The notes beneath the pieces were generated by a model. The model saw nothing but the letters and a program-made list of their open reading frames with translations. It searched no databases and was not told where the DNA came from. DNA of 64,000 nucleotides from the NCBI RefSeq assembly GCF_012273655.1, contig NZ_JAAWWP010000003.1:372001-436000 (forward strand), given 5' to 3'. The position numbers and the translations under genes are program-made. Below are positions 26,500 through 38,506 of the stretch, one piece after another. Within the stretch, counting starts at the first letter, position 1. Each line of letters starts with the position of its first letter. Source of the DNA: Streptomyces physcomitrii (GTDB lineage: Bacteria; Actinomycetota; Actinomycetes; Streptomycetales; Streptomycetaceae).

Positions 26500-27078
26500 G
26501 CCATGACCTCCGCTTCCGCAGAGAGAACGGATGACCTGACCGAGACGGCACTGACTCACCCGACTCACCTCCGCTGACGCGGAGAACACTGTCCTGCGCT
26601 CAGGCGGCCTCGCGCGACGGCCCGGCTCACCTCCGCTCACGCGGAGCGCACGTGTTCGCCCCGACTGATGAGATGTCGGAGACCGGCCCACCTCCGCTCG
26701 CGCGGAGCGCACGCCACTTGTTCCAGTCCGGCGTCCGGCCCAAGCGGCTCACCTCCGCTCGCGCGGAGCGCACTGGGGGAGGAGGAAGGGGGCAAGGGCT
26801 ACGTGCGGCTCACCTCCGCTCGCGCGGAGCGCACTCGCGGTGGATGGAACGGGAGGCGGAGCTGTTCGGCTCACCTCCGCTCGCGCGGAGCGCACAGGAA
26901 GTCGGCGTACTCGCCGAACAACATGCCCGGCTCACCTCCGCTCGCGCGGAGCGCACGCCGCAGGTTCGGGGCGCCGGGCCGGGGTGGTCGGCTCACCTCC
27001 GCTCGCGCGGAGCGCACTCGAAGCGGTCGTGGACCAGGATGCGGGCGCCCGGCTCACCTCCGCTCGCGCGGAGCGCAC
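26500..27078 (-). CRISPR. CRISPR array 1 (type I-E), 9 repeats plus one decayed repeat
   Basis: 29-bp repeat, on the plus strand CGGCTCACCTCCGCTCGCGC followed by GGAGCGCAC, period 61 with 32-nt spacers. Exact repeats start at 26745, 26806, 26867, 26928, 26989 and 27050. Those at 26623 and 26684 have one change each. That at 26561 has five, with a 33-nt spacer after it. A 19/29 match at 26500-26528 sits exactly one period further out. The leader is on the cas2 side, so transcription is leftward and the decayed end is the old end. Eight spacers lie between the clear repeats. Confidence 0.97.
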
Positions 27079-27117
27079 ACTTCCTGACCTGCACCCTTAG
27101 AGGGGCATTGCCATTTC
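27079..27117 (-). promoter_or_regulatory. leader block of array 1, overlapping the end of cas2
   Basis: 39 nt abutting the first repeat, starting GAAATGG and ending GCAGGTCAGGAAGT. It is 33/39 identical to the block in front of array 2. The first 21 nt encode the last six cas2 codons and its TAA. Confidence 0.8.
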
Positions 27118-27408
27118 TTGACTCGGTCGGTCGAAGGCGATCAAGGTCAGGCCGTCGAAGTCGACGGGGGTACGGCGTTGCGGCCCCGCCGTGCGGAGTT
27201 CGAAGCCCTGTTCGTTGTCGGTGGGGTAGGCGAGGACCGCGTTGCCCTGGTCCGCGCAGGCGGTGACCGACTGCCAGAGTTCGTCGCGTACCCGGGCGGA
27301 GACGGTGCCGACGTAGAGCTCGGGGGTGACTTCGAGGAGCCAGCGGGTGAGGGCGCCTCTGAGGTGGTCGGGGACGGCGGTCGCCGAGATGACGATCATG
27401 GAGGCCAT
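27097..27408 (-). CDS. cas2e: CRISPR-associated endonuclease Cas2 (type I-E)
   Basis: 103 residues starting MASMIVISATAVPDHLRGALTRWLLEV, the type I-E Cas2 fold. It forms the structural core of the Cas1-Cas2 integrase that inserts spacers next to the leader. The stop codon lies only 18 bp before the first repeat of array 1, so the leader overlaps the coding sequence. A 27-bp gap separates it from cas1. Its tail EMAMPL is echoed by EMAKPF in the array 2 leader. Confidence 0.95.
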   Translation of the reverse strand: MASMIVISATAVPDHLRGALTRWLLEVTPELYVGTVSARVRDELWQSVTACADQGNAVLAYPTDNEQGFELRTAGPQRRTPVDFDGLTLIAFDRPSQEMAMPL

Positions 27409-27435
27409 GGGGCAGGTCCTTCCCGGGAGAGGGCT

Positions 27436-28404
27436 TCAGCCGTCGGCGGCGTGGTTGATGCCGCCGGGGACGGCTCCGGTGACGGGGTCCCAGAGGTCGA
27501 CGAGTTCTTCTTCCGGGTCGGGGGCCTCGCGGTCGCTGCCGGGGTCCAGGAGGTCCTGGATGTCGTGGACGATCCGCGGGAGGAGCCGGAACAGGCGCAG
27601 GTCGTCGCGGAAGGAACGGCGGGCCTGCGCTTCGGGGTTGGGCGAGCTGTGGAGGGAGAAGGCGAGGGGGATGGTGAGTTCGGCCTTGTAGAGGTCGGCG
27701 ACGTCGTAGACGAGGGCCTGCTGGTTTCCCTGGTGGACGAAGCCGAGGGCGGGGGACATGCCCAGGGAGTGGACGGCGGCGTGGACGATGCCGTAGAGGC
27801 AGGTGTTGGCGGAGGACAGGGCCAGGTTGACGGGGTCCTGGAGGTCCCACTGCGCGGGGTCGTAGGCGCGGCGGAAGCGGCCGATCCTGTGCTGCTGGGC
27901 GAGGATCTTGTACTGCGCTTTGACGCGCTGGCCCTCCATGCCGCGCAGTTGCTGGAGCGTGGTGCCGGGCGGGACGGTGCCGGCGCCGAAGCGCTTCTCG
28001 TACATGGCGGTGGCGATGCGCAGGCGGTGTGTGTCGTCCGCCCAGGACCGCGCCTGGCGTTCGAGCCAGGTCGTACTCAGGGACGCGGGCTGGGTGGCCG
28101 CGTAGCAGCGCACTCCCCCGGAGCCGGTGATCAGCACCGTGGTGCCGTGGCGGGCGAGGGTGGCCATGGCGGGCGCGGTGATGGAGGTGCCCGGGCCGAG
28201 GAGCACGCAGGAGAGGGCGGCGGTGGGCAGGTAGACGGTCTGGCGGCCGTGGAGTTCGCTGCTGACCTCGGCCAGGACGCCGGTGTCGTCCTGGAGCACG
28301 CGGACGATGTCCAGGTAGAGGAAGGACAGGGAGTCGGCGATGCGCGGCAGCATGGCGACGGTGGGTGCGGCGAGCTTGCGGCGCGCCTGCGAGGGTGTGG
28401 TCAT
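27436..28404 (-). CDS. cas1e: CRISPR-associated endonuclease Cas1 (type I-E)
   Basis: 322 residues. An N-terminal beta domain precedes the helical catalytic domain. Likely metal ligands are Glu157 (MEGQRVK), His224 (GFVHQG) and Asp234/Asp237 (YDVADLYK), all present, so it is probably active. It is the integrase subunit for new spacers. The ATG at 28404 overlaps the cas6e stop (ATGA). A C-terminal acidic extension (PDPEEELVDLWDP) goes slightly beyond the usual core. Confidence 0.96.
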   Translation of the reverse strand: MTTPSQARRKLAAPTVAMLPRIADSLSFLYLDIVRVLQDDTGVLAEVSSELHGRQTVYLPTAALSCVLLGPGTSITAPAMATLARHGTTVLITGSGGVRCYAATQPASLSTTWLERQARSWADDTHRLRIATAMYEKRFGAGTVPPGTTLQQLRGMEGQRVKAQYKILAQQHRIGRFRRAYDPAQWDLQDPVNLALSSANTCLYGIVHAAVHSLGMSPALGFVHQGNQQALVYDVADLYKAELTIPLAFSLHSSPNPEAQARRSFRDDLRLFRLLPRIVHDIQDLLDPGSDREAPDPEEELVDLWDPVTGAVPGGINHAADG

Positions 28405-29069
28405 ACGTCCGCCGGAGTGCGCTGGGGGGCGAGGGTGAGCAGGCCGCAGCCGTAGGCCTTGCCGCGGCCGATGCCGGCGGTCAGCTTGGTGCGCAGCTGG
28501 TCGGGGTCGACGATGACGGCGACGCCGTCGAAGCGGGTACGGGAGTGGCGGATGCGCTGCCGGTCCTTCTGCCCGCTCCTGGTGCCGGTCGCGGCGTCGA
28601 GCGGCTGGGAGAGCAGGGAGAGCAGCTTCAACCCGGCCGCGTCCGCCTGGCGTTGCCACCACTCCTCGGCGTCCGGTCCGTGCAGGGCGACCACCTCGGG
28701 CAGCTGGTAGCGGGAGCGGGTGGTGGCGCCGGGCTTGCGTACCGCGCTGGCCGTGCAGCGGTAGTGGATCTGGAGGCCGCCGCACAGAAGGCCCAGGAGC
28801 GGGTCGAGGGAGCGGATGGCGCTCCGGCCGTAGCCGTCGGGGAGCTTGGTCAGGTCGGGTTGGTGGGCGGACTGCAGGAGGATCGCGGGCCCGCCGCGGG
28901 CGTCGTCGACCCGGTGCAGCAGACCGAGTCGACGGCGGGGATCGGGGCCGAGGTCGTCGGGGAAGAGGCTCATCAGGCGGCGGTGCAGTCCGACCGCGTC
29001 ACCGAGGTCGCGGCGGGCTTCCCGGGACCTCGGATCGGGGGCGATGCGGGTCAGCCACAGGGATGTCAT
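28401..29069 (-). CDS. cas6e: Cas6e/CasE crRNA-processing endoribonuclease
   Basis: 222 residues with two ferredoxin-like folds. The candidate catalytic His29 lies in VGLHRRLMSLFPDD, and the C-terminal glycine loop is GIGRGKAYGCGLL. It cuts the repeat hairpin (GCTCCGCG-CGAGCGGAG-type stem in this repeat) and stays bound in Cascade. The ATG at 29069 overlaps the cas5 stop, and its own stop overlaps the cas1 start, both as 4-bp ATGA junctions. Confidence 0.95.
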   Translation of the reverse strand: MTSLWLTRIAPDPRSREARRDLGDAVGLHRRLMSLFPDDLGPDPRRRLGLLHRVDDARGGPAILLQSAHQPDLTKLPDGYGRSAIRSLDPLLGLLCGGLQIHYRCTASAVRKPGATTRSRYQLPEVVALHGPDAEEWWQRQADAAGLKLLSLLSQPLDAATGTRSGQKDRQRIRHSRTRFDGVAVIVDPDQLRTKLTAGIGRGKAYGCGLLTLAPQRTPADV

Positions 29070-29935
29070 CGGCGTGCTCCCTCGGGGGTGGTCTGGGCGC
29101 GGTAGGCCGCGAGGCGCTTGAGGTGGTCGATGCCGTGCCCCGCCCATTGCTCGCGTGGCGGCGTGTACCGGCGGCGGAAGACGGGTCGCGCGTGGTGGCT
29201 TCGGCTGCGGGGGTGGAAGGAGGCGGGCTCGTCGTGGAGTTGTCCGGCGGGTTGGGCGGCCTCCGCGGGGTCGGACGGGCGCAGCTCGGGCGGGAGGGGC
29301 AGGTGGTCGAGCGGGCGGTCGCCGAGGAGTTCCACCTCGGGGGCGGGTGCCCGTTCGCGCGGCGGGGGCGCGGCGAGCGGCAGGTGGATCAGGTGGTGCA
29401 GGGGGTCCTCGAAGACGCCGATCAGGAGGGGTCCGGTGGGCGGGCAGGACCGGCGGCCCAGGTAGAGCGGCCAGCGCGGGGCCGCGAGGGCGTCGGCGCA
29501 GGCGGTGAGGAGGCCGGGCGGGGTGTCGGGCCCGGGGGTGAGGGCGGCGGTGAAGGCGGCGTCCGCGAGGTAGTAGCGGTGGGAGAGGAGGGTGCCGGTG
29601 TCGCCGGAGCGCTTCTTGCCCTGGGCGGTGGTGACCGTCTGCGCGGCCGGGAGTCCGCCGCCCACGGTGTGCAGGTCACGCAGGAGTACGCCGCCCCGGT
29701 CCGTACGGACGGTCAGGCGCAGGGTGGCGAGGTCGCCGACCGGCTCCTGCCGTGCCCGGCCGAGGGCGGCGGCCAGCAGACCGATGACGCCGGAGCGCGT
29801 GGGGTGCGGGGCGGTGTCGCGCTGGTTGAAGTGGCTGTGCCCGCCCCAGGACTGCAGGGGGCCCGCGAGGTGGAGGAGCAGGCCCGGCACGGATGCCGCG
29901 GAGGCGGCGTCCGCGGCGAGGTCGGAGTGGGTCAC
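29066..29935 (-). CDS. cas5e: Cas5e/CasD Cascade subunit
   Basis: 289 residues. GLLLHLAGPLQSWGGHSHFNQRDT is the typical Cas5 N-terminal ferredoxin-like start, and PTRSGVIGLLAAALG follows. Cas5e caps the 5' handle of the crRNA. It is longer than the E. coli protein (about 224 residues), the extra length being a Pro/Arg/His-rich C-terminal part. The GTG start overlaps the cas7 stop (GTGA). Confidence 0.94.
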   Translation of the reverse strand: MTHSDLAADAASAASVPGLLLHLAGPLQSWGGHSHFNQRDTAPHPTRSGVIGLLAAALGRARQEPVGDLATLRLTVRTDRGGVLLRDLHTVGGGLPAAQTVTTAQGKKRSGDTGTLLSHRYYLADAAFTAALTPGPDTPPGLLTACADALAAPRWPLYLGRRSCPPTGPLLIGVFEDPLHHLIHLPLAAPPPRERAPAPEVELLGDRPLDHLPLPPELRPSDPAEAAQPAGQLHDEPASFHPRSRSHHARPVFRRRYTPPREQWAGHGIDHLKRLAAYRAQTTPEGARR

Positions 29936-31116
29936 GCCGCGGGCTCCTGCTCGAAGGCGCGGTCCGCCGCGGCGGTGACCAGCTTGTCGACGGACGAGTG
30001 CCGCGTGCCGAGTCCGGTGAGGTCCTTGGCGTCGCGGCCCGTCCAGCCCGCCAGGAGGATGCCCTCGGTGCCCATGAACGCGTCGACCTCCTCGGCGTAC
30101 TCGGCGAGAGCGTCGCGGGAGGGGGCGGCGAATCCGCCCTCGGGAGCCATCCGTACGGGCTTCTCGAAGGCGGCGGCCAGGGAGAGCGGGCGGTCGGCGC
30201 GGACGGTGACGTGGACCAGGTCCGGCGGCGTGTTCGGAGCGGTGGAGTTCTTCTTCGCCTCGGGCAGGGAACGTACGAACGACTGGAGGAAGGCCTCGGC
30301 GAGTTCCCGGACGGCTGCCGTGTCACCGCCGAGGTTGGCGGCGAGTTCGGCGAGGTCGAGGGTGGCGTAGCGGTAGAAGGTGCCCGCGCTGAACTCGGCG
30401 TGGCCCATGTGGCCGCTGCCGGTGGCGTCCTGCCACTGGTCGGTGACGTCGTCGACGGCGGAGAAGTAGTCGATCTCGATGTCGGTGGGGTGCGTGGTCA
30501 TGGCGTGCGCGACCTGGACGGCGCCGTCGACCCCGGCGTCGTCCACCTCGGCGAGCATGCGGCCGAAGGTGTTGATGACGCCGTTGCGGGAGCGCAGCAC
30601 GCCCTTCACCCGGCCGGTCTGGTCCTTGAGGACGCTCTTGTCCGAGGGCTTGGTGATGTCCTTGGCCTTCTCGATCTCCGCGCGGAACTCCTCGGCCAGA
30701 TCGGCGAGTTCGGAGATGGCTGCCTCGGGTACGTAGACCAGGGCGTTCTGGAGGACCACGTTGGGCAGGACCTTCTTCTCCTTCTCCTCCAGCTCGAACT
30801 TGATCCCGGAGGCGGCCGCCACCTGCGCCCCCGCCCTGGCCGCGAGCCCGGCATCCCAGCCCCGCTCCTCGCTCAGCAGGCGGGCCACCCGCTCGGCGAT
30901 ACGACGGGTACGCAGCGCACTCTGCCCGGTACGTTCCTCGAACTTCTTGCGCACGGCGCGCTTCCAGCACTGGCTGGAGACCCGGGTACGCAGCACGCCC
31001 CCGAACTGGACGGTCTTCACCGAGTTCGTGTCGTCGCGGTTGAGGTTCGCGAACGGCACGGTCTGCAGCACGCTGACGCAGAGGAAGCGGGCGGGGAGGG
31101 TGAGGGTGGTGGTCAT
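29932..31116 (-). CDS. cas7e: Cas7e/CasC Cascade backbone subunit
   Basis: 394 residues starting with a Thr-rich head and then SVLQTVPFANLNRDDTN, the Cas7e signature. FGGVLRTRVSSQCWKRAVR follows. Six copies line the crRNA in Cascade. The internal region GHAEFSAGTFYRYATLDL is family-typical. The ATG at 31116 lies 116 bp after the cse2 stop, the largest gap within the Cascade genes. Confidence 0.95.
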   Translation of the reverse strand: MTTTLTLPARFLCVSVLQTVPFANLNRDDTNSVKTVQFGGVLRTRVSSQCWKRAVRKKFEERTGQSALRTRRIAERVARLLSEERGWDAGLAARAGAQVAAASGIKFELEEKEKKVLPNVVLQNALVYVPEAAISELADLAEEFRAEIEKAKDITKPSDKSVLKDQTGRVKGVLRSRNGVINTFGRMLAEVDDAGVDGAVQVAHAMTTHPTDIEIDYFSAVDDVTDQWQDATGSGHMGHAEFSAGTFYRYATLDLAELAANLGGDTAAVRELAEAFLQSFVRSLPEAKKNSTAPNTPPDLVHVTVRADRPLSLAAAFEKPVRMAPEGGFAAPSRDALAEYAEEVDAFMGTEGILLAGWTGRDAKDLTGLGTRHSSVDKLVTAAADRAFEQEPAA

Positions 31117-31232
31117 GAGGGCTCCAAGAGGGTGGCTGGAGGAAGAAGAGCGTCACCGCACGGGGGCGGATGTTCTTCTGCGGTCGTGACGGGCCCGCGG
31201 CAGGGCACCGTGTCCGGTGAGGGCCGGTCCTG

Positions 31233-32066
31233 TCAGCCGCCCGGAGAGGGTTCCGGGCTTTCGGCCGTGGCCGTGACGTCCCCGACGGTGGCCGTGGCGT
31301 CCTCGACCACGGCCTCGGCGTCCTCGCTGTCGGCCCGGCGGCGGTCCGCCTTCTGCAACTCCCGGTAGAAGTCCTGAAGCCAGTACCGGGTGATGCGGCC
31401 GGAGTCCCGGGGCCAGTCGAGGAGGTCCTGGAGCAGCCGGGCGAAGTCGACGGGCACGCCCAGGGACCGCAGATAGCGCACCGAGGCGGGGAGGTGCCGG
31501 TGCAGGCCGGTGATCTGCTGCTTGCACAGCACGTTCAACCGGCTCTCCGCCGTGCCCCGGCGCATCTGGCGTTCCCGGCCCGAGGCCACATCGACCGCGG
31601 CCGCGAAAGCCGCGCCGAGGCTGGATCCGTAGTCGGGGCGGAGAGTGGCGGCACGGTCCTCGGACCCGGGCGCGGTGCCCGCCGGCGCTCCACCGCTCGC
31701 GCCGTCCTCGGCGCCCTCGGCGTCTTCGGCTTCTTCGGTCCCCTCCGCATCCTCCGTCTCCTCCTCCGACGACGACCTCTGCTTTCTGCGCGTCTGCTCG
31801 GCGATCATGGCCGCGACCGCGTAATACGCGCGCTGGGCGCGGTCGTCGGCGGCGGGCGGCACCAGGTGGGCGATCACCTGGTGCATGCGGGGTACGGCGT
31901 CCAGGTCCTTGCCGACTCCCGAGCGCAGGGCGCTGCGGGCCCCTGGATCGCTCTCACAACGGCGGCTCACCGAGGCGACGAAGCGGTCGTACGTGGTGAG
32001 CCGGTTCGTACGGGGACTCCGCTGGGCGGGAACTGCCGCCTGCGGAACGGTGTTGGCGACGGTCAC
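31233..32066 (-). CDS. cse2: Cse2/CasB Cascade small subunit with acidic insertion
   Basis: 277 residues, clearly longer than usual Cse2 proteins (about 160-220). The helical core is recognisable (YDRFVASVSRRCESDPGARS; LNVLCKQQITGLHRHLPASV; LLQDLLDWPRDS). An inserted low-complexity segment of about 40 residues after TRRKQRSSSEEE is built from EDAEG/EEAE units, and a second Asp/Glu/Ala/Thr tail lies at the C-terminus. Cse2 stabilises the R-loop in Cascade. The GTG at 32066 overlaps the cse1 stop. The insertion probably forms a loop between helices; its effect is unknown. Confidence 0.9.
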   Translation of the reverse strand: MTVANTVPQAAVPAQRSPRTNRLTTYDRFVASVSRRCESDPGARSALRSGVGKDLDAVPRMHQVIAHLVPPAADDRAQRAYYAVAAMIAEQTRRKQRSSSEEETEDAEGTEEAEDAEGAEDGASGGAPAGTAPGSEDRAATLRPDYGSSLGAAFAAAVDVASGRERQMRRGTAESRLNVLCKQQITGLHRHLPASVRYLRSLGVPVDFARLLQDLLDWPRDSGRITRYWLQDFYRELQKADRRRADSEDAEAVVEDATATVGDVTATAESPEPSPGG

Positions 32067-33679
32067 GGGGTGGGCTCCTTCTCCTTGGCCGCACCCGGGG
32101 CGGACGCGGCACGTCGGTCGCCGAAGAGGTCGGTTCGGGCTTCCTGGACCGCTTTCGCACCGCGCTGGGTGCCCGCGACCTGATCGGTGACCTCGTCGAA
32201 CGCGGCCAGCGCGAGGCGGAGGAAGGCGGCACGGGCGGCCGGGCCGTCCAGGCCGCCGTCGAGGGTGGTGCCGGTACGGTCCAGTCCGGCGAAACGGCGC
32301 CAGAACTCCCGCTCGGCACCGGGCCAGTAGCGTGCTGCCCCGTTTACCGCCCAGGCGTCCGCGTCGTCCTTCGGGTCGTTGACATAGGTGCGCCAGGCGC
32401 GGCGCAGGGCGCGGTCGAGCCGCTGGCCGAAGCGTTCGCCGAGGACGCGGAGCTGACCGACCGCGGGGCGGCTGGTGGCCGCGCGCCGTTCCAGGTACCC
32501 GAGGACGGGCGGGGTGGCGGCGTCGACGAACTGGAGGTCCTTGGCCTGGCTGTCCTGCTCGAAACCGAGGGCCCGGACCCGCAGGTCCTCGACGAAGTCC
32601 TCGGAGATCTCCTGAGCCCAGTCGAAGACGGCGGGACGGCGCGGCCGGGCCTGGCCGGGCGGTTCGGCGAGCAGCAGTGCGTCGAGGTCGCGCCACAGGG
32701 CACGGGAGGAGTTCGCGTGCCGCGGGTAGCGGTTGCCGGCCTGGCTCTTCTGCCAGATCAGAAAGTCGTCGTCGGGGCGGGCGGCACGGCCGGTGCGGTA
32801 GCCCCAGGTGATGTAGGCGTCCACGACGCGGGAGGCGTCCTCGGGGTCGGGGACGAGCAGCAGCGCGTGCACGCCCTGGCCGGTGAGCTGCGAACAGGGC
32901 CCGGTGGCGGCGGGCGGCGGCCCTTCCGGGTCCGGCAGGGTCTCCCTTTCCCACGGGCAGAGGTCCTCGGCAGGGCGTACCTGCTGCTTCGGCGGGACCA
33001 GCCCGGCGAGGAGCGTCTGGAAGAGGGTGCCGCCCTCGGGGTGGTAGGAGAGGGTCCCGCGCAGCGGTCCCCCCGTGGCGTTGGACGTCTTGGTGCCGTT
33101 GACGGTGCGCGCGCTGCACTTGCCGGACGGCCCGTAGAAGAGCCAGGTCAGCAGGCTGAGTACGGCTTCGGAGGCGCTCGGCGGGACGGGGCGGGTGTCG
33201 CTCGTGTGCGTGAACCAGGCGTGGTTGTTGCCGGCCGGGCGGGTCACGATCAGCTTGTTGACCCCGGCGGTGCCCGCGGCGTCGCACTCCTCGACCAGCC
33301 GGGGGTCCTGCATCCACGGGCGGCCACCCGCGTCGTCGAACAGGAAGAACCTGCTGTGGTGCCGCGCGCAGTAGGCGTCGATGCCGTCCGACGGAAGCTG
33401 CCCGGCGGCCAGGATCTCGTCACGGCGCAGGATCCAGGCCTCACGGCCGTCGAGTGCCTGGTCCAGGCCGGTCACCCGGGCGGTGAGAGCGTAGAGGATC
33501 CGCAGGAGCGCGGAGTGCGCGGGCGGGATCGCCACGGCGAGGTTCTCGATCTCGTGCGCATGCCGCAGCAGCGGTCGCAGGCCCACCTCGCCCTCCGGAC
33601 CGCTCCCCACGGGCGGCGCACTCCCCGGCCTCCACCGCACCGGGAAGAGCGGGTCGTCGAGCACGTTCGTCAGAGGCAT
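32063..33679 (-). CDS. cse1: Cse1/CasA Cascade large subunit
   Basis: 538 residues starting MPLTNVLDDPLFPVRW. Family landmarks include FFLFDDAGGRPWMQDP, the loop GTAGVNKLIVTRPAGNNHAWFTH and TWLFYGPSGKCSART. Cse1 recognises the PAM and recruits Cas3. A GGGAGAG ribosome site precedes the ATG at 33679, and the longer upstream frame is rejected as unconserved. It is separated from cas3 by 193 bp and coupled to cse2 by a GTGA overlap. Confidence 0.94.
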   Translation of the reverse strand: MPLTNVLDDPLFPVRWRPGSAPPVGSGPEGEVGLRPLLRHAHEIENLAVAIPPAHSALLRILYALTARVTGLDQALDGREAWILRRDEILAAGQLPSDGIDAYCARHHSRFFLFDDAGGRPWMQDPRLVEECDAAGTAGVNKLIVTRPAGNNHAWFTHTSDTRPVPPSASEAVLSLLTWLFYGPSGKCSARTVNGTKTSNATGGPLRGTLSYHPEGGTLFQTLLAGLVPPKQQVRPAEDLCPWERETLPDPEGPPPAATGPCSQLTGQGVHALLLVPDPEDASRVVDAYITWGYRTGRAARPDDDFLIWQKSQAGNRYPRHANSSRALWRDLDALLLAEPPGQARPRRPAVFDWAQEISEDFVEDLRVRALGFEQDSQAKDLQFVDAATPPVLGYLERRAATSRPAVGQLRVLGERFGQRLDRALRRAWRTYVNDPKDDADAWAVNGAARYWPGAEREFWRRFAGLDRTGTTLDGGLDGPAARAAFLRLALAAFDEVTDQVAGTQRGAKAVQEARTDLFGDRRAASAPGAAKEKEPTP

Positions 33680-33872
33680 GGCTCTCCCGGAGCAGAAACG
33701 GAGACGGTTTCGTACGAGCGGAGCCGGGAGCGAACGGGCAGCGCGCGACCGGGTACGTACCGCGCCCGATGAGCCGGCGCAGGTCGGCAGGTGCGGTAAC
33801 TCCCCTTTCGGGAAGCAGAGTTGAAAAGTAGCGAAGAGGACGAACTCTTGTGAGGGTTTCCTGGAGAAAGAG
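33680..33872 (-). promoter_or_regulatory. spacer between cas3 and cse1, possible internal promoter
   Basis: 193 bp, richer in A and T than the neighbouring coding DNA (GAAAAG/CTTTTC and similar stretches near 33815-33880). Its position matches the Cascade promoter of E. coli I-E loci. No clear -10/-35 pair was assigned. Confidence 0.35.
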
Positions 33873-36722
33873 TCAAAGTTCCTCGACTCCCACCTCGGAG
33901 AGGGCGATCGTGCGCTCACCGAGCCCGCATCGCCACCCCTCCCCTTCCTCACCGGGGGTCAGCACCAGCACGCCCACTTCGCGCAGCAGCGGCTGCTGGC
34001 GCCAGCCGGGCGGATGCTCGACTCCTCCGTCCCGCAGCCACCGGCCGGGTACCGGCACCACCCGGGCCATCACCTCGGCCAGCTCCCGACGAGAGGGTCG
34101 AGGCCCTTCCGGCAGGCCCGCCTCGCCGGACTCGTCCAGCATCCAGGCGCCGTCCGGCTGCGCGTACACGCACACCACCCGGCCGGTGTCCGCGCCGAGG
34201 CGCGTGGTGAGGAGGTCCTCGTCCACCCCCTCGACCCGTCGGCTCAGGAGGTGCAGGTACCCCTGGACATCTCCCGGGCCGCCGATCGCCACCATGTCCG
34301 CCAGGCTCGTCTCGGCCGCCTGGGAGGCGAGACGCTCCAGGTCCAGATCCCGCAACTCCCGCCCGACGCCGGCATCCAGATCATCGACGAAGTCCGGCGC
34401 GTAGACGGCGTCCACCAGCTCCTGCACTCCACCGGGGACCGCGATGCCCTCGCCCGCGCGCTCCCTCAGCAGCAAGGACGTCCGCAGCAGCAGGCTGGCG
34501 TCGTAGACCAATCCCCACGACCTCGGGCACATCCGGCCCTCAGGAGCGAGGAACGGATCCAGCACCACCACGCGCGGAGCGTCCTCCGCCGCGGCCCACG
34601 CCGGTCTGCCCGTGCCGCCCCGCTGGTGGCGCCTGCAACGCCCGGCCCGCTGCAACAGTTGGGCCAGCGGAGCCAGATCGCTGATCACCACCTCGAAGTC
34701 GAGGTCGAGGGACTGCTCCACCACCTGCGTGGCCACCAGCACGGAGGGCTCCCGCACCGATGGTTCCGCCCCCGCCTCCGGCTTGCCGTAGGCGCGCTCG
34801 CACTCGGCCGCGATCTCCTGCCGTACGCGGGCGGGGAAGCGGGAGTGCAGCAGCCGCACCCCGCCCGGACGCCCCGCTAGCTCAGGGAAGGCGGCGCGGA
34901 TGTCACGGAAGGTGGCCTGCGCCTCGGCGACGGTCGTGCAGCACACCAGCGCGGTACCCCCGCCCTCGACGACCTGCCGGAGTTCCTCGCGCACCGCGGC
35001 ACGACGCCCGCCCGCCGGAGCGGGCCCGCCCGCCTCACCTTCCCGTACATCCCAGGCCACCGGCCGCACGACGACGTCGAGGGTGCGGGGCCTTCCCGTC
35101 GCCGTGCTCCGCGGCGCCGAGACCTCGCCGGTCACGGCTCCCGCGTACACCCATCCCGGGTACGCGGGCTCGACCGGTGCCGCCTCGGTGAACCCCGCAC
35201 CGCGCCGGTAGGCGTTCACCAGAGAGGCCGCCGCCTGGCCCGTCAGCGTCGCCGACAGGAGCACCACCGGCGCGCGCATCGCGCCCAGCCACTCCAGCAG
35301 GACCAGCAGGAGCTTGTGCATCCACGGGCCGTAGGCATGGGCCTCGTCGACCACGAAGACCTTCTCGTGCAGCCCGAACAGGCGCAGCGTGTTGTAGCGC
35401 AGTGGCAGCACGCCGGCCAGGACCTGGTCGACGGTGCCCACCGACAGCGGCGCCAGAAAGCCGCGGCGGTTCCCGCGCACCCAGTCCCCGGCCGCCACCG
35501 AGGTGGCCGTGTCCGAGGAGAGCTGAGCGGTCCGGTCGTCGGAGGACGGCGGCGTGTAGGCCGAGTTCAGCCAGGCCATCGAGTGCAGCAGCGTCAGAGC
35601 GCGCTGACCGGTCAACGCCGACTCCGCGAACGCGCGCACCCTCCCGTACATGGCGTCGGCCGTCGCCATCGTCGGCAGCGCCACGAACATCCCGCGCGCC
35701 CCCGCCGCCCTGCCCAGCACCGACGAGGCGAACAGCGCCGCCTCCGTCTTCCCGTCCCCCGTCGGCGCCGTCACCAGCAGCACCCCCGGGCCGTGGGCCT
35801 GCACCAGACCGGGCAACTGCGCGACGAGGTCGGCCTGGAGCGGGTTCGGCGCGAACGGGAACATCCCGCCGAAGCTGCTCTCGGCGAACTCGGCCCGCCC
35901 CAGCCGCGCCGCACCGACCAGCGCGGGAGCCGCCGCCACCGCACGCGCGAAGTGCGCGTCCACCTCCGCCGCAGTGCCCTGCCACCCCGTCGTGCCCCGT
36001 ACGGACTCGATCGCGGCGGTGTCACTGGCCAGCCAGTCCGCGCAGACCACCAGCCCTGACAACACCACGGCGAGGTCCGCCGACAAGGCCCCCGCGGGCA
36101 CCGAGGCCGCACCGGTGACCCGCCGCAACTCCTCCAGATGACAACGCCGCTGGACATGCCACCCTGCCGCACCAAGACCAGGCTCGTACGAAGCGGGCGT
36201 CCGCATCTCCGACGTCGTCAACTTCCGCCCGAACAGCCCGTGATGACCGCCGAGCAACTGCCCCACCCAGTGCGCCAGTTGGGCTCCGCTGCCACCCCGC
36301 TGCGCGGCGCCGTGCCGGTTCGGATACCCGGCCTCTTCGAGCAGCGAACCCAACGACCAATGGGTAGCCATCTCGTGCCGCATCCGAGCACCCGCCACAT
36401 GCGCGTACTCGGGCTGCCCGCCCACCACCTCGAACAAGGCGGGCACCTGCGCCTGAAAGGCAGGCGAGATCTTCCCCAGATCATGCAACCCCGCCCAGAA
36501 CGAGAGCACCGCCCGGCACTCCGACTCCGACAGCCCCAACTGCCCGGCGAACCGCTCCCGGACCCGCTGCTCCAGCAACTCGTCCCACAGCACACCGAAC
36601 GTCGCCGCCACATCCAGCAGATGACACATCACGGGGTACGGCCCGGCCAGCCCGTGCTCCTTGCCCCACAGACGCCCGTCCGGCAACACCACTGCCTGCC
36701 ACGCATCTTGACTGTCAGTCAT
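33873..36722 (-). CDS. cas3: Cas3 helicase-nuclease (HD-DExH), type I
   Basis: 949 residues. The N-terminal HD nuclease has the HD pair at His80-Asp81 (GLHDLGK), with further His at 34 and 160-161. The helicase has APTGDGKT at 319-326, DEAH at 459-462, SAT at 490-492 and QRAGRCRR at 691-698; all are intact. Cas3 is recruited by Cascade and degrades the displaced DNA strand. The ATG at 36722 has AGGAC upstream. It is the first gene of the cas operon, facing away from array 2. Confidence 0.96.
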   Translation of the reverse strand: MTDSQDAWQAVVLPDGRLWGKEHGLAGPYPVMCHLLDVAATFGVLWDELLEQRVRERFAGQLGLSESECRAVLSFWAGLHDLGKISPAFQAQVPALFEVVGGQPEYAHVAGARMRHEMATHWSLGSLLEEAGYPNRHGAAQRGGSGAQLAHWVGQLLGGHHGLFGRKLTTSEMRTPASYEPGLGAAGWHVQRRCHLEELRRVTGAASVPAGALSADLAVVLSGLVVCADWLASDTAAIESVRGTTGWQGTAAEVDAHFARAVAAAPALVGAARLGRAEFAESSFGGMFPFAPNPLQADLVAQLPGLVQAHGPGVLLVTAPTGDGKTEAALFASSVLGRAAGARGMFVALPTMATADAMYGRVRAFAESALTGQRALTLLHSMAWLNSAYTPPSSDDRTAQLSSDTATSVAAGDWVRGNRRGFLAPLSVGTVDQVLAGVLPLRYNTLRLFGLHEKVFVVDEAHAYGPWMHKLLLVLLEWLGAMRAPVVLLSATLTGQAAASLVNAYRRGAGFTEAAPVEPAYPGWVYAGAVTGEVSAPRSTATGRPRTLDVVVRPVAWDVREGEAGGPAPAGGRRAAVREELRQVVEGGGTALVCCTTVAEAQATFRDIRAAFPELAGRPGGVRLLHSRFPARVRQEIAAECERAYGKPEAGAEPSVREPSVLVATQVVEQSLDLDFEVVISDLAPLAQLLQRAGRCRRHQRGGTGRPAWAAAEDAPRVVVLDPFLAPEGRMCPRSWGLVYDASLLLRTSLLLRERAGEGIAVPGGVQELVDAVYAPDFVDDLDAGVGRELRDLDLERLASQAAETSLADMVAIGGPGDVQGYLHLLSRRVEGVDEDLLTTRLGADTGRVVCVYAQPDGAWMLDESGEAGLPEGPRPSRRELAEVMARVVPVPGRWLRDGGVEHPPGWRQQPLLREVGVLVLTPGEEGEGWRCGLGERTIALSEVGVEEL

Positions 36723-36853
36723 GACGCATGTCCTACCAGCCCGCACCGACAACGCAGGCTGATCAGGCCATTCCCACTCCCCACAGGGCCACGCCGCCTA
36801 CAGTGCGCACCATGCGTACTGCTCACTCCCGGCCCTGCACTTCACCTGGCAAT
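36723..36853. promoter_or_regulatory. divergent control region, cas3 / array 2
   Basis: 131 bp between the cas3 start (leftward) and the leader block of array 2 (rightward). Both the cas operon promoter and the upstream part of the array 2 leader should lie here. No specific motif was assigned. Confidence 0.5.
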
Positions 36854-36892
36854 GAAATGGCAAAGCCCTTCTGACGCCGCAGGTCAGGAAGT
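36854..36892 (+). promoter_or_regulatory. leader block of array 2, copy of cas2 tail plus leader
   Basis: 39 nt abutting the first repeat, 33/39 identical to the array 1 block and ending identically in GCAGGTCAGGAAGT. Read in the same frame it gives EMAKPF and a stop, against EMAMPL and a stop at the end of real cas2. There is no cas2 gene in front of it. Confidence 0.8.
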
Positions 36893-37530
36893 GTGCGCTC
36901 CGCGCGAGCGGAGGTGAGCCGTACACGTCCGGGCGGCGCACGAACCGCTTCTCGTGCGCTCCGCGCGAGCGGAGGTGAGCCGTCCGCACCCTGTACCGGG
37001 ACGCCGTGCGTGATGTGCGCTCCGCGCGAGCGGAGGTGAGCCGCCGCCCGGTAGTCGGGGTGATGGCGCCACATCGTGCGCTCCGCGCGAGCGGAGGTGA
37101 GCCGAGGTCGCCGCCCGCGAGTTCGCCGCTACGGATGTGCGCTCCGCGCGAGCGGAGGTGAGCCGTCCAGCGCGTCCGGCAGGGGCGAGGCGCCGCCGTG
37201 CGCTCCGCGCGAGCGGAGGTGAGCCGTCCTCTCCGGTCTGGTTCGGGCCTTGGAAGTGTGCGCTCCGCGCGAGCGGAGGTGAGCCGCAGCACTCGGACCC
37301 GATCACCTCCGACGAGGAGTGCGCTCCGCGCGAGCGGAGGTGAGCCGCGCACCCCTCGGGCAGGCCACCGTGACGGGCCGTGCGCTCCGCGCGAGCGGAG
37401 GTGAGCCGGTCATGCGGTGGCGGGTGCGGAGGACGACGATGTGCGCTCCGCGCGAGCGGAGGTGAGCCGGTCGCCTTACTGCTCGCGTTCACCGGGGCCC
37501 TGTGCGCTCCGCGCGAGCGGAGGTGAGCCG
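36893..37530 (+). CRISPR. CRISPR array 2 (type I-E), 11 repeats
   Basis: Eleven identical 29-bp repeats, GTGCGCTCCGCGCGAGCGGA followed by GGTGAGCCG, starting at 36893, 36954, 37015, 37076, 37137, 37198, 37258, 37319, 37380, 37441 and 37502. Nine spacers are 32 nt; the sixth (37227-37257) is 31 nt. The leader is on the cas3 side, so transcription is rightward. The last repeat is intact, unlike in array 1. No spacer is shared with array 1 by eye. Confidence 0.97.
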
Positions 37531-37858: not shown

Positions 37859-38506
37859 GTGACCGAACCGCCCGCCGCCGTCCTCGCCCGAGGCCATCAG
37901 ACCATGCTGCTGGCGCACCGTGCCATGGTGCGCGACCTGGAGCGCATCGGCCTCGCCAGCCGCACGCTGCCGGCGGCCGACGCGGATCGCACCAGCGCGT
38001 TGCGCGCGTATACGCACACGATCTTCCAGTTGATCGAGCACCACCACCACGGCGAGGACGAGTTCCTCTGGCCGAAGCTGCGCGAGCGGGGTGCCGACGT
38101 GGATGCCCTGACGCTGATGACCGGCGAGCACGAGGAACTCACAAAGGTGCTGCACGCCTGGCACGCGGTCAGCCAACGGCTCGGCACCGACGAAGCGGCC
38201 CCGGCCGAGCTGGCGGCCCGTACGGACGACCTGCGCGAGCAGCTCGCCGCGCACGCCGCCGACGAGGAGCGAGAGCTGTCGGGACGGCTCGCGCCCGCGC
38301 TGGACGGCCGGATCTGGAAAGGCTTCGAGAAGCACATGCGCAAGACGGCGCCGCTGTGGACGCTGCGGTTCATGCCGGCTTGGCTGCTGTCCGTCTCGGG
38401 CCCTGAGGAGCGCCGGGGTGTGCCCGCCGCCCCGGTCGGACGGCTGTTCAGCGGCTGGCTGGAGAGGTCCCAGCTCGCCGCCTTCGGTGAGCACCACGCG
38501 GTCTAG
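37859..38506 (+). CDS. hemerythrin HHE-domain-like protein
   Basis: 215 residues. The first about 150 form a four-helix HHE-type domain with candidate metal ligands in HQTMLLAH, EHHHHGEDEFLWP, MTGEHEEL and AHAADEERE. The remaining helical tail (RFMPAWLLSVSG...) is not recognised. Family members bind a di-iron or haem-like centre and act in oxygen or NO sensing or storage; the role here is unknown. The GTG at 37859 follows CCAAGGAG. It stands alone between the CRISPR locus and tRNA-Ile. Confidence 0.83.
   Translation: MTEPPAAVLARGHQTMLLAHRAMVRDLERIGLASRTLPAADADRTSALRAYTHTIFQLIEHHHHGEDEFLWPKLRERGADVDALTLMTGEHEELTKVLHAWHAVSQRLGTDEAAPAELAARTDDLREQLAAHAADEERELSGRLAPALDGRIWKGFEKHMRKTAPLWTLRFMPAWLLSVSGPEERRGVPAAPVGRLFSGWLERSQLAAFGEHHAV

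Follow-up and report, generated by a model that had tools for sequence, protein, structure and literature searches.

A candidate type I-E CRISPR leader element in Streptomyces physcomitrii that lies partly within the 3' end of cas2

The stretch analysed here (the window) comprises 64,000 nucleotides (nt) of Streptomyces physcomitrii (assembly GCF_012273655.1, contig NZ_JAAWWP010000003.1, positions 372,001 to 436,000) and holds a type I-E locus of clustered regularly interspaced short palindromic repeats (CRISPR), with one array on either side of the cas genes. A short block of DNA adjoins the first repeat of both arrays, and at array 1 much of it is also the end of cas2. The block is very probably a compact type I-E leader element of ~44 bp that lies against the first repeat in one Cas1-Cas2 clade, and not a copied cas2 tail. 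The features are listed by window position, with protein lengths in amino acids (aa) and with scores from a profile of array-2 leaders described below.

26561..27078, minus strand: CRISPR array 1, leader end at 27078 (repeat finding; first base of the last repeat set by eye)
27079..27122, minus strand: array-1 leader element, 44 nt (-44..-1), array-2-leader profile score 61.1
27097..27408, minus strand: cas2 (Cas2e, 103 aa), NCBIfam TIGR01873, E 3.6e-23
27439..33775, minus strand: cas1, cas6e, cas5e, cas7e, cse2 and cse1 (type I-E), NCBIfam matches above cut-offs
33873..36722, minus strand: cas3, divergent from array 2, NCBIfam cas3_core and cas3_HD
36723..36848, plus strand: remainder of the region between cas3 and array 2, the upstream part of leader 2, common to array 3 of the same genome
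36849..36892, plus strand: array-2 leader element, 44 nt, non-coding, profile score 64.6 (itself a training row)
36893..37530, plus strand: CRISPR array 2, 11 perfect 29-nt repeats (repeat finding)

The type I-E set is complete and in order (cas3, cse1, cse2, cas7e, cas5e, cas6e, cas1e, cas2e), with all eight genes between the arrays. Each of cse1, cse2, cas7e, cas5e, cas6e, cas1e and cas2e scored above its curated NCBIfam cut-off, while cas3 scored above those of cas3_core and cas3_HD but below that of the full-length model PRK09694; its start at 36722 was picked by eye, as the ATG reading MTDSQDAW. Array 1 has six perfect repeats on the leader side and three changed repeats at the distal end, the polarity expected of its leader, and array 2 has perfect repeats throughout and so carries no polarity information. 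As is usual for a CRISPR leader, the element adjoins the leader-proximal repeat and is common to the arrays of one system. Leaders are also expected to be non-coding, which holds at array 2 but not at array 1, where 26 of the 44 nt (27097-27122) are in the cas2 reading frame and form the 3' end of that gene, including its TAA.

A first-pass annotation of the window had paired two 39-nt blocks, 27079-27117 (minus strand) and 36854-36892 (plus strand), and both their positions and their identity (33/39) were confirmed. When block 1 was set without gaps at every position of either strand of the 64-kb window, the runner-up matched at 22/39. A repeat search of the window recovered the same pair as inverted repeat I5 (27050-27117 and 36854-36921; 68 nt, 91%), which consists of the block and the first repeat. 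The reading frames that had been reported, EMAMPL-stop at the end of cas2 and EMAKPF-stop at array 2, were borne out (SQEMAMPL-stop and NEMAKPF-stop in the longer readings), as was the absence of a cas2 gene at array 2: nothing cas2-like lies upstream of the array-2 block, and identity between the two leaders just upstream of the element is at background (0.27 over -88..-45). By comparison between genomes the conserved element is longer than the block, at 44 nt (27079-27122, minus strand; 36849-36892, plus strand). The likeness of the blocks is real and lies far beyond chance. That a short, relatively AT-rich stretch should resemble another by accident is vanishingly improbable, and this explanation was ruled out by the distance to the runner-up and by the scores of random sequence, the best profile score over 1.5 Mb of random sequence with 72% G+C (-1.8) falling far under those of the arrays.

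Loci for comparison came from a Cas2 protein scan of genome contigs (38 loci, flanks up to 10 kb) and from TIGR01873 searches of 396 genomes of the phylum, 21 with a match, and 246 genomes of the genus, 70 with a match; the window's own genome is in both sets, and genus genomes with only sub-cut-off matches (G397, G461, G590) were left out. When the combined 136 loci were re-searched for cas2, 137 matches were obtained, 127 of them distinct and the window's own among them, though some of the 127 are fragments or odd frames (e.g., L044, L046, L066, L107, L122). A cas2 was classed as window-like at an identity of at least 60% over at least 82 residues (55/127 loci). Seventeen genomes, the window's own among them, supplied the array-2 leaders on which the profile was trained, and it was scanned around every cas2 stop with a score threshold of 20, set by eye. 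Consensus and per-column information were derived from 17 of 18 array-2 leaders (L023, with a boundary off by one, was dropped) and, together with codon counts, from 19 of 23 array-1 leaders of the Streptomyces group, from which L012, L020 and L028 were dropped for an uncertain array boundary and L033 for a different stop.

By array finding and leader extraction, the block was present at most of the Streptomyces arrays examined. Array 1 starts exactly 18 nt past the cas2 stop in 22/38 loci, with Cas2 lengths of 101-110 aa, and the additional residues of the longer Cas2 of L031 and L032 sit upstream of the block. Scores >20 were obtained at 39 of the 127 distinct cas2 loci, including 37 of the 55 window-like loci, whereas outside the window-like set the element occurred in 2/72 loci (L071, L087). 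The junction with the array fell at cas2 stop+17 or +18 in 35/39 loci (+18 in 29 window-like loci; +17 in six, five of them window-like and the sixth L087), and single loci had it at stop+21, +24, +29 and +265. The profile scan found no block above threshold near the cas2 stop in 18/55 window-like loci. Seven of these (L034-L040; Nonomuraea, Herbidospora, Acrocarpospora, Spongiactinospora) carry a different, intergenic leader; three score weakly at the same place, 18-20 nt past the cas2 stop (L041, 16.3; L081, 12.6; L043, 4.4); one is rearranged (L092); and the last seven (L026, L030, L083, L102, L130, L132, L137) have no forward array adjoining cas2 (orientation by eye).

Some of these loci have peculiarities of their own. 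The beginning of the block survives in the cas2 tail of L092 (SQEMA), after which the frame runs into unrelated sequence, with the junction half and the array lost, as if a rearrangement had broken within the leader. In the Nonomuraea leaders L034, L038 and L039, two CAGGTC/CAGCTC-like elements and no GCAAAG part were seen by eye, which suggests that leader types are clade-specific and have mainly the junction-proximal element in common. The leader element occurs twice at one array of L030, 78 bp apart (junctions 12822 and 12900), and at L029 one block lies toward cas2 and another, which scores higher and faces inward, lies at the opposite end of the array (junctions 10330 and 11028). At L026b, a putative far leader, no block was seen.

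The central claim of the first-pass annotation was that a fragment with the cas2 end, the leader and a repeat had been copied and inverted to seed array 2. If so, loci whose cas2 has a different end should lack the block, but it is kept at several loci at which cas2 does not encode it. In L082 cas2 ends in RPDDGDAAESL and the block lies 265 nt beyond, adjoining a forward array; the cas2 of L090 stops early, so that the greater part of the block falls outside the gene, and the profile score is still 54.7; and six loci contain the block in another reading frame (e.g., KEMQSPS). Five further loci have a cas2 without the block and yet carry it at an inverted array upstream of cas3, with scores of 66.7 (L026) and 71.0 (L030), both training rows, and of 30.9 (L102), 59.0 (L130) and 51.9 (L137). 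The annotation had named a leader motif independent of cas2 as the finding that would tell against it, and these loci, together with a third array in the window's own genome, provide it.

This third leader, on contig 5 (G000:C5:66629-66792, locus L157, junction 8769), has the block and is followed by an array whose repeats differ slightly, with GTTTTC, GTTTGC or GTCTTC and then TCCGCGCGAGCGGAGGTGGGTCG at many units (by eye). Leader 2 (window 36753-36921) matches it at 80% over query positions 1-164. None of the open reading frames (ORFs) of at least 170 aa around array 3 resembles a cas gene on inspection by eye, and the genome's only two Cas2e matches lie on contig 23, so that none is near array 3. 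A search of 61 relatives with the leader-2 region gave some match in 14, mostly short and to the repeat or the junction end, with a match at 78% over query positions 39-164 in G423. The second Cas2e of the genome (G000:C23:139830-140078; L068, L124) belongs to another, long-tailed clade, to which 42/127 loci were assigned; it is 122 aa as read, ends in GWSKAAKRRRFGG and has a repeat ~90 nt downstream.

Within cas2, conservation of the block follows the DNA. The consensus sequences of the array-1 (n = 19) and array-2 (n = 17) leaders are the same at 40/44 columns, and over -44..-22 the array-1 leaders match the array-2 consensus about equally at codon positions 1, 2 and 3 (98/133, 115/152 and 110/152; 0.74, 0.76 and 0.72), compared with 111/285, 40/266 and 80/285 (0.39, 0.15 and 0.28) just upstream. 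Per-column information is correlated between the two sets over -45..-19 (Spearman rho = 0.71) and not over -60..-46 (rho = 0.04). The G+C content of third codon positions (GC3) drops from 0.81 in 1770 body codons of cas2 to 0.50 over its final seven codons (133 tail codons; Fisher p = 3e-14), and GCA accounts for 17/19 Ala codons in the tail vs 25/217 in the body. The suggestion in the first-pass annotation that leader DNA lies partly within cas2 coding DNA is thus supported by the even conservation of the three codon positions and by GC3.

Recurrent EMANPL-like tails at many array-1 loci could instead mean that the tail peptide itself is conserved, for example for contact with Cas1 or DNA, and that conservation of the DNA is secondary. 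This is extremely unlikely: third codon positions are conserved as much as the first two, arrays 2 and 3 retain the same DNA in non-coding form, the tail differs where no forward array adjoins (RPDDGDAAESL, QRANKEAEPSTG...), and six loci read the block in another frame. Among nine solved Cas2 sequences, eight align only to query residue 92-94 and the alignment of the ninth, a chain of 78 residues, ends at 79, which leaves residues beyond ~92 (DRPSQEMAMPL) outside the part that aligns with solved chains; a tail of this kind may accept leader-encoded residues. A structure prediction for Cas2 from 30 sequences was too poor for the tail and was unused (mean predicted local distance difference test score, 59; <50 for residues 77-103). 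Conservation of the peptide was rejected, the non-coding array-2 copies and the other-frame loci largely ruling it out.

The layout in other genomes bears on the copying of a cas2 fragment as well. The first-pass annotation had proposed looking for the motif in second leaders elsewhere, and the block was present at an inverted array upstream of cas3 in 21/67 loci listed, from three named genera including Nocardiopsis, so the arrangement is not a local event. A copy and inversion of the cas2 end, leader and repeat in this lineage would account for 33/39 identity with a matching stop codon, for a stop kept in most array-2 leaders and for a greater likeness of the two leaders within than between genomes, and leader copying does exist in this genome, the likeness of arrays 3 and 2 reaching well upstream of the block. 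In 12 genomes with both leaders remaining after row drops, however, the cas2-coding half of the block showed no within-genome excess (0.663 within vs 0.660 between genomes; permutation P = 0.47) and the likeness stopped at the upstream edge of the block, identity beyond it being at background (0.284 within vs 0.297 between genomes). With the block also found where cas2 does not encode it, and the arrangement common to 21 loci, copying in this lineage is very improbable, and a recent copy-inversion of a cas2-leader-repeat fragment was rejected on the independence of the block from cas2 coding. Ancient copying, before the split of Streptomyces and Nocardiopsis, is possible. Leaders 1 and 2 probably share descent from an old duplication of the array, in which the copied unit was leader and repeat, not cas2.

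The preferred reading is therefore of a conserved DNA signal, with the consensus roughly G(C/T)(A/C)AAGAAATGGCAAAGCCC..CTAACG..GCAGGTCAGGAAG(G/T), and not a stray gene copy, since the end of cas2 is written through a control sequence shared between arrays. At array 1 the element is pressed against the cas operon, with the cas2 frame entering it and ending on the TAA of the element, 18 nt before the first repeat. Only these 18 nt separate cas2 from array 1, leaving little space for a leader outside the gene, and the last approximately eight residues of Cas2, as by-products of a frame running into the leader, appear to be set by leader DNA. At arrays 2 and 3 the same element stands in non-coding DNA with other DNA upstream. 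The element is placed like the leader elements of Escherichia coli that direct Cas1-Cas2 from within ~55 bp of the first repeat, and its most likely role would be to mark the leader-repeat junction for integration by Cas1-Cas2; that the block is needed by Cas1-Cas2, as the first-pass annotation stated, is in the same way something we infer. The A-tracts of the array-2 consensus (GCAAAG-N5-GCAAAG, 11 bp apart) might bend or mark the DNA instead of IHF. A wider reading, somewhat more probable than not, is that in a large actinobacterial I-E lineage the 3' end of cas2 contains the leader element at which spacers land, that the leader dictates the Cas2 tail, that loss or movement of array 1 lets the tail drift, and that the leader has two parts, a 44-bp junction module present at every array of the clade and an upstream part confined to stand-alone arrays.

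Several observations weigh against the reading as a leader element or narrow it. Over the whole block, the two leaders of one genome resemble each other more than leaders of different genomes do (0.714 vs 0.674, permutation P = 0.0057). The excess stems from the final 18 nt of the block (0.796 vs 0.709, P = 0.0011) and could have arisen by gene conversion or by copying no less than by co-evolution with Cas1-Cas2; we infer that these 18 nt are held together by conversion or by a shared integrase. A stop codon at the position and in the frame of the cas2 stop is kept by 12/17 array-2 leaders and not by the other five. A CACTGACA-like stretch, common to many array-2 leaders, lies >100 nt upstream of the block, near cas3, so that the full leader 2 may exceed the block; the stretch may be a second leader element, or part of leader 2, or the cas3 promoter. 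The element was not found by the profile scan in any of the 42 loci of the long-tailed Cas2 clade (clade B), and 11 other-clade loci have an array at most 25 nt from the cas2 stop and no block, which makes it the leader of one clade and not of all type I-E systems. The profile was itself trained on 16 of the 21 array-2 blocks, which leaves only five (L023, L032, L102, L130, L137) as independent. Among Glu codons GAA is already the commoner in the cas2 body (54 vs 42), and the codon evidence thus comes mainly from GCA and other A-ending codons. The compared species are related and kinship was uncorrected, which makes the p-values indicative only. CRISPR leaders also drive transcription, and the main function of the block might be that of a promoter or other transcription signal of the arrays and not that of an integration anchor. 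A TA step at -21/-20 in 11/17 array-2 leaders is consistent with this, as is a predicted -10 box that overlaps the first repeat in S. avermitilis according to part of that report (PMC4762764). Array 1, on the other hand, is co-oriented with the cas operon and only 18 nt behind it, a position in which a separate promoter may be unnecessary, and yet has the block, and strong conservation starts at -44 and extends to the repeat junction; a role chiefly in transcription is unlikely, and a contributory one is possible.

Conservation of a leader is nothing unusual; the apparently new aspect is a leader that sits within the coding DNA of cas2, together with its natural controls. Surveys of CRISPR leader motifs across types are reportedly given by Santiago-Frangos 2021 and Buyukyoruk 2025. 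A full-text literature search, which did not cover these two surveys, found no description of a leader inside cas2 in the text portions available, and none is described in the available portions of the I-E papers PMC3316620 and PMC3559282. In the part of the literature on the E. coli I-E leader that was available, an IHF site at -9 to -35, Cas1-Cas2 contacts at -1 to -4 and an upstream element at -50 to -55 are reported (PMC10011333). The window resembles that system in having two arrays with one cas set and leader DNA near the first repeat that would direct Cas1-Cas2, and differs from it, compared by position and not by alignment, in that the E. coli leader is called non-coding while 26 of 44 bp are in the cas2 frame at array 1. 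The type I-E locus of S. avermitilis has the same layout, leader sequence left aside. The accessible part of the report on it places CRISPR I and II on either side of the cas genes, with transcription of array II running against that of these genes, and it describes an alignment of the leaders (Fig 1B) and spacer gain at both arrays across two strains (4/144 and 17/144 colonies, CRISPR I and CRISPR II); an overlap of leader and cas2 is not mentioned in that part (PMC4762764).

The term leader-anchoring sequence, used in the first-pass annotation, is the name for junction elements of type II-A systems. There, short DNA elements beside the first repeat control site-specific spacer integration, similar in place to the present element but with a different Cas1-Cas2 family, and overlap with a coding sequence is not mentioned in the portions available (PMC6895254, PMC5382924).

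For one actinobacterial type I-E clade the element is a precisely placed, conserved 44-bp candidate adaptation signal, and as the DNA at array 1 can be changed without altering the protein, a clean test of that signal is at hand. Leader searches limited to non-coding DNA would truncate leaders of this kind, and the C-terminus of this Cas2 should not be taken as protein conservation. Beyond array 2, the window contains an ORF (37859-38506) that is hemerythrin-like by eye, with His/Glu-rich motifs.

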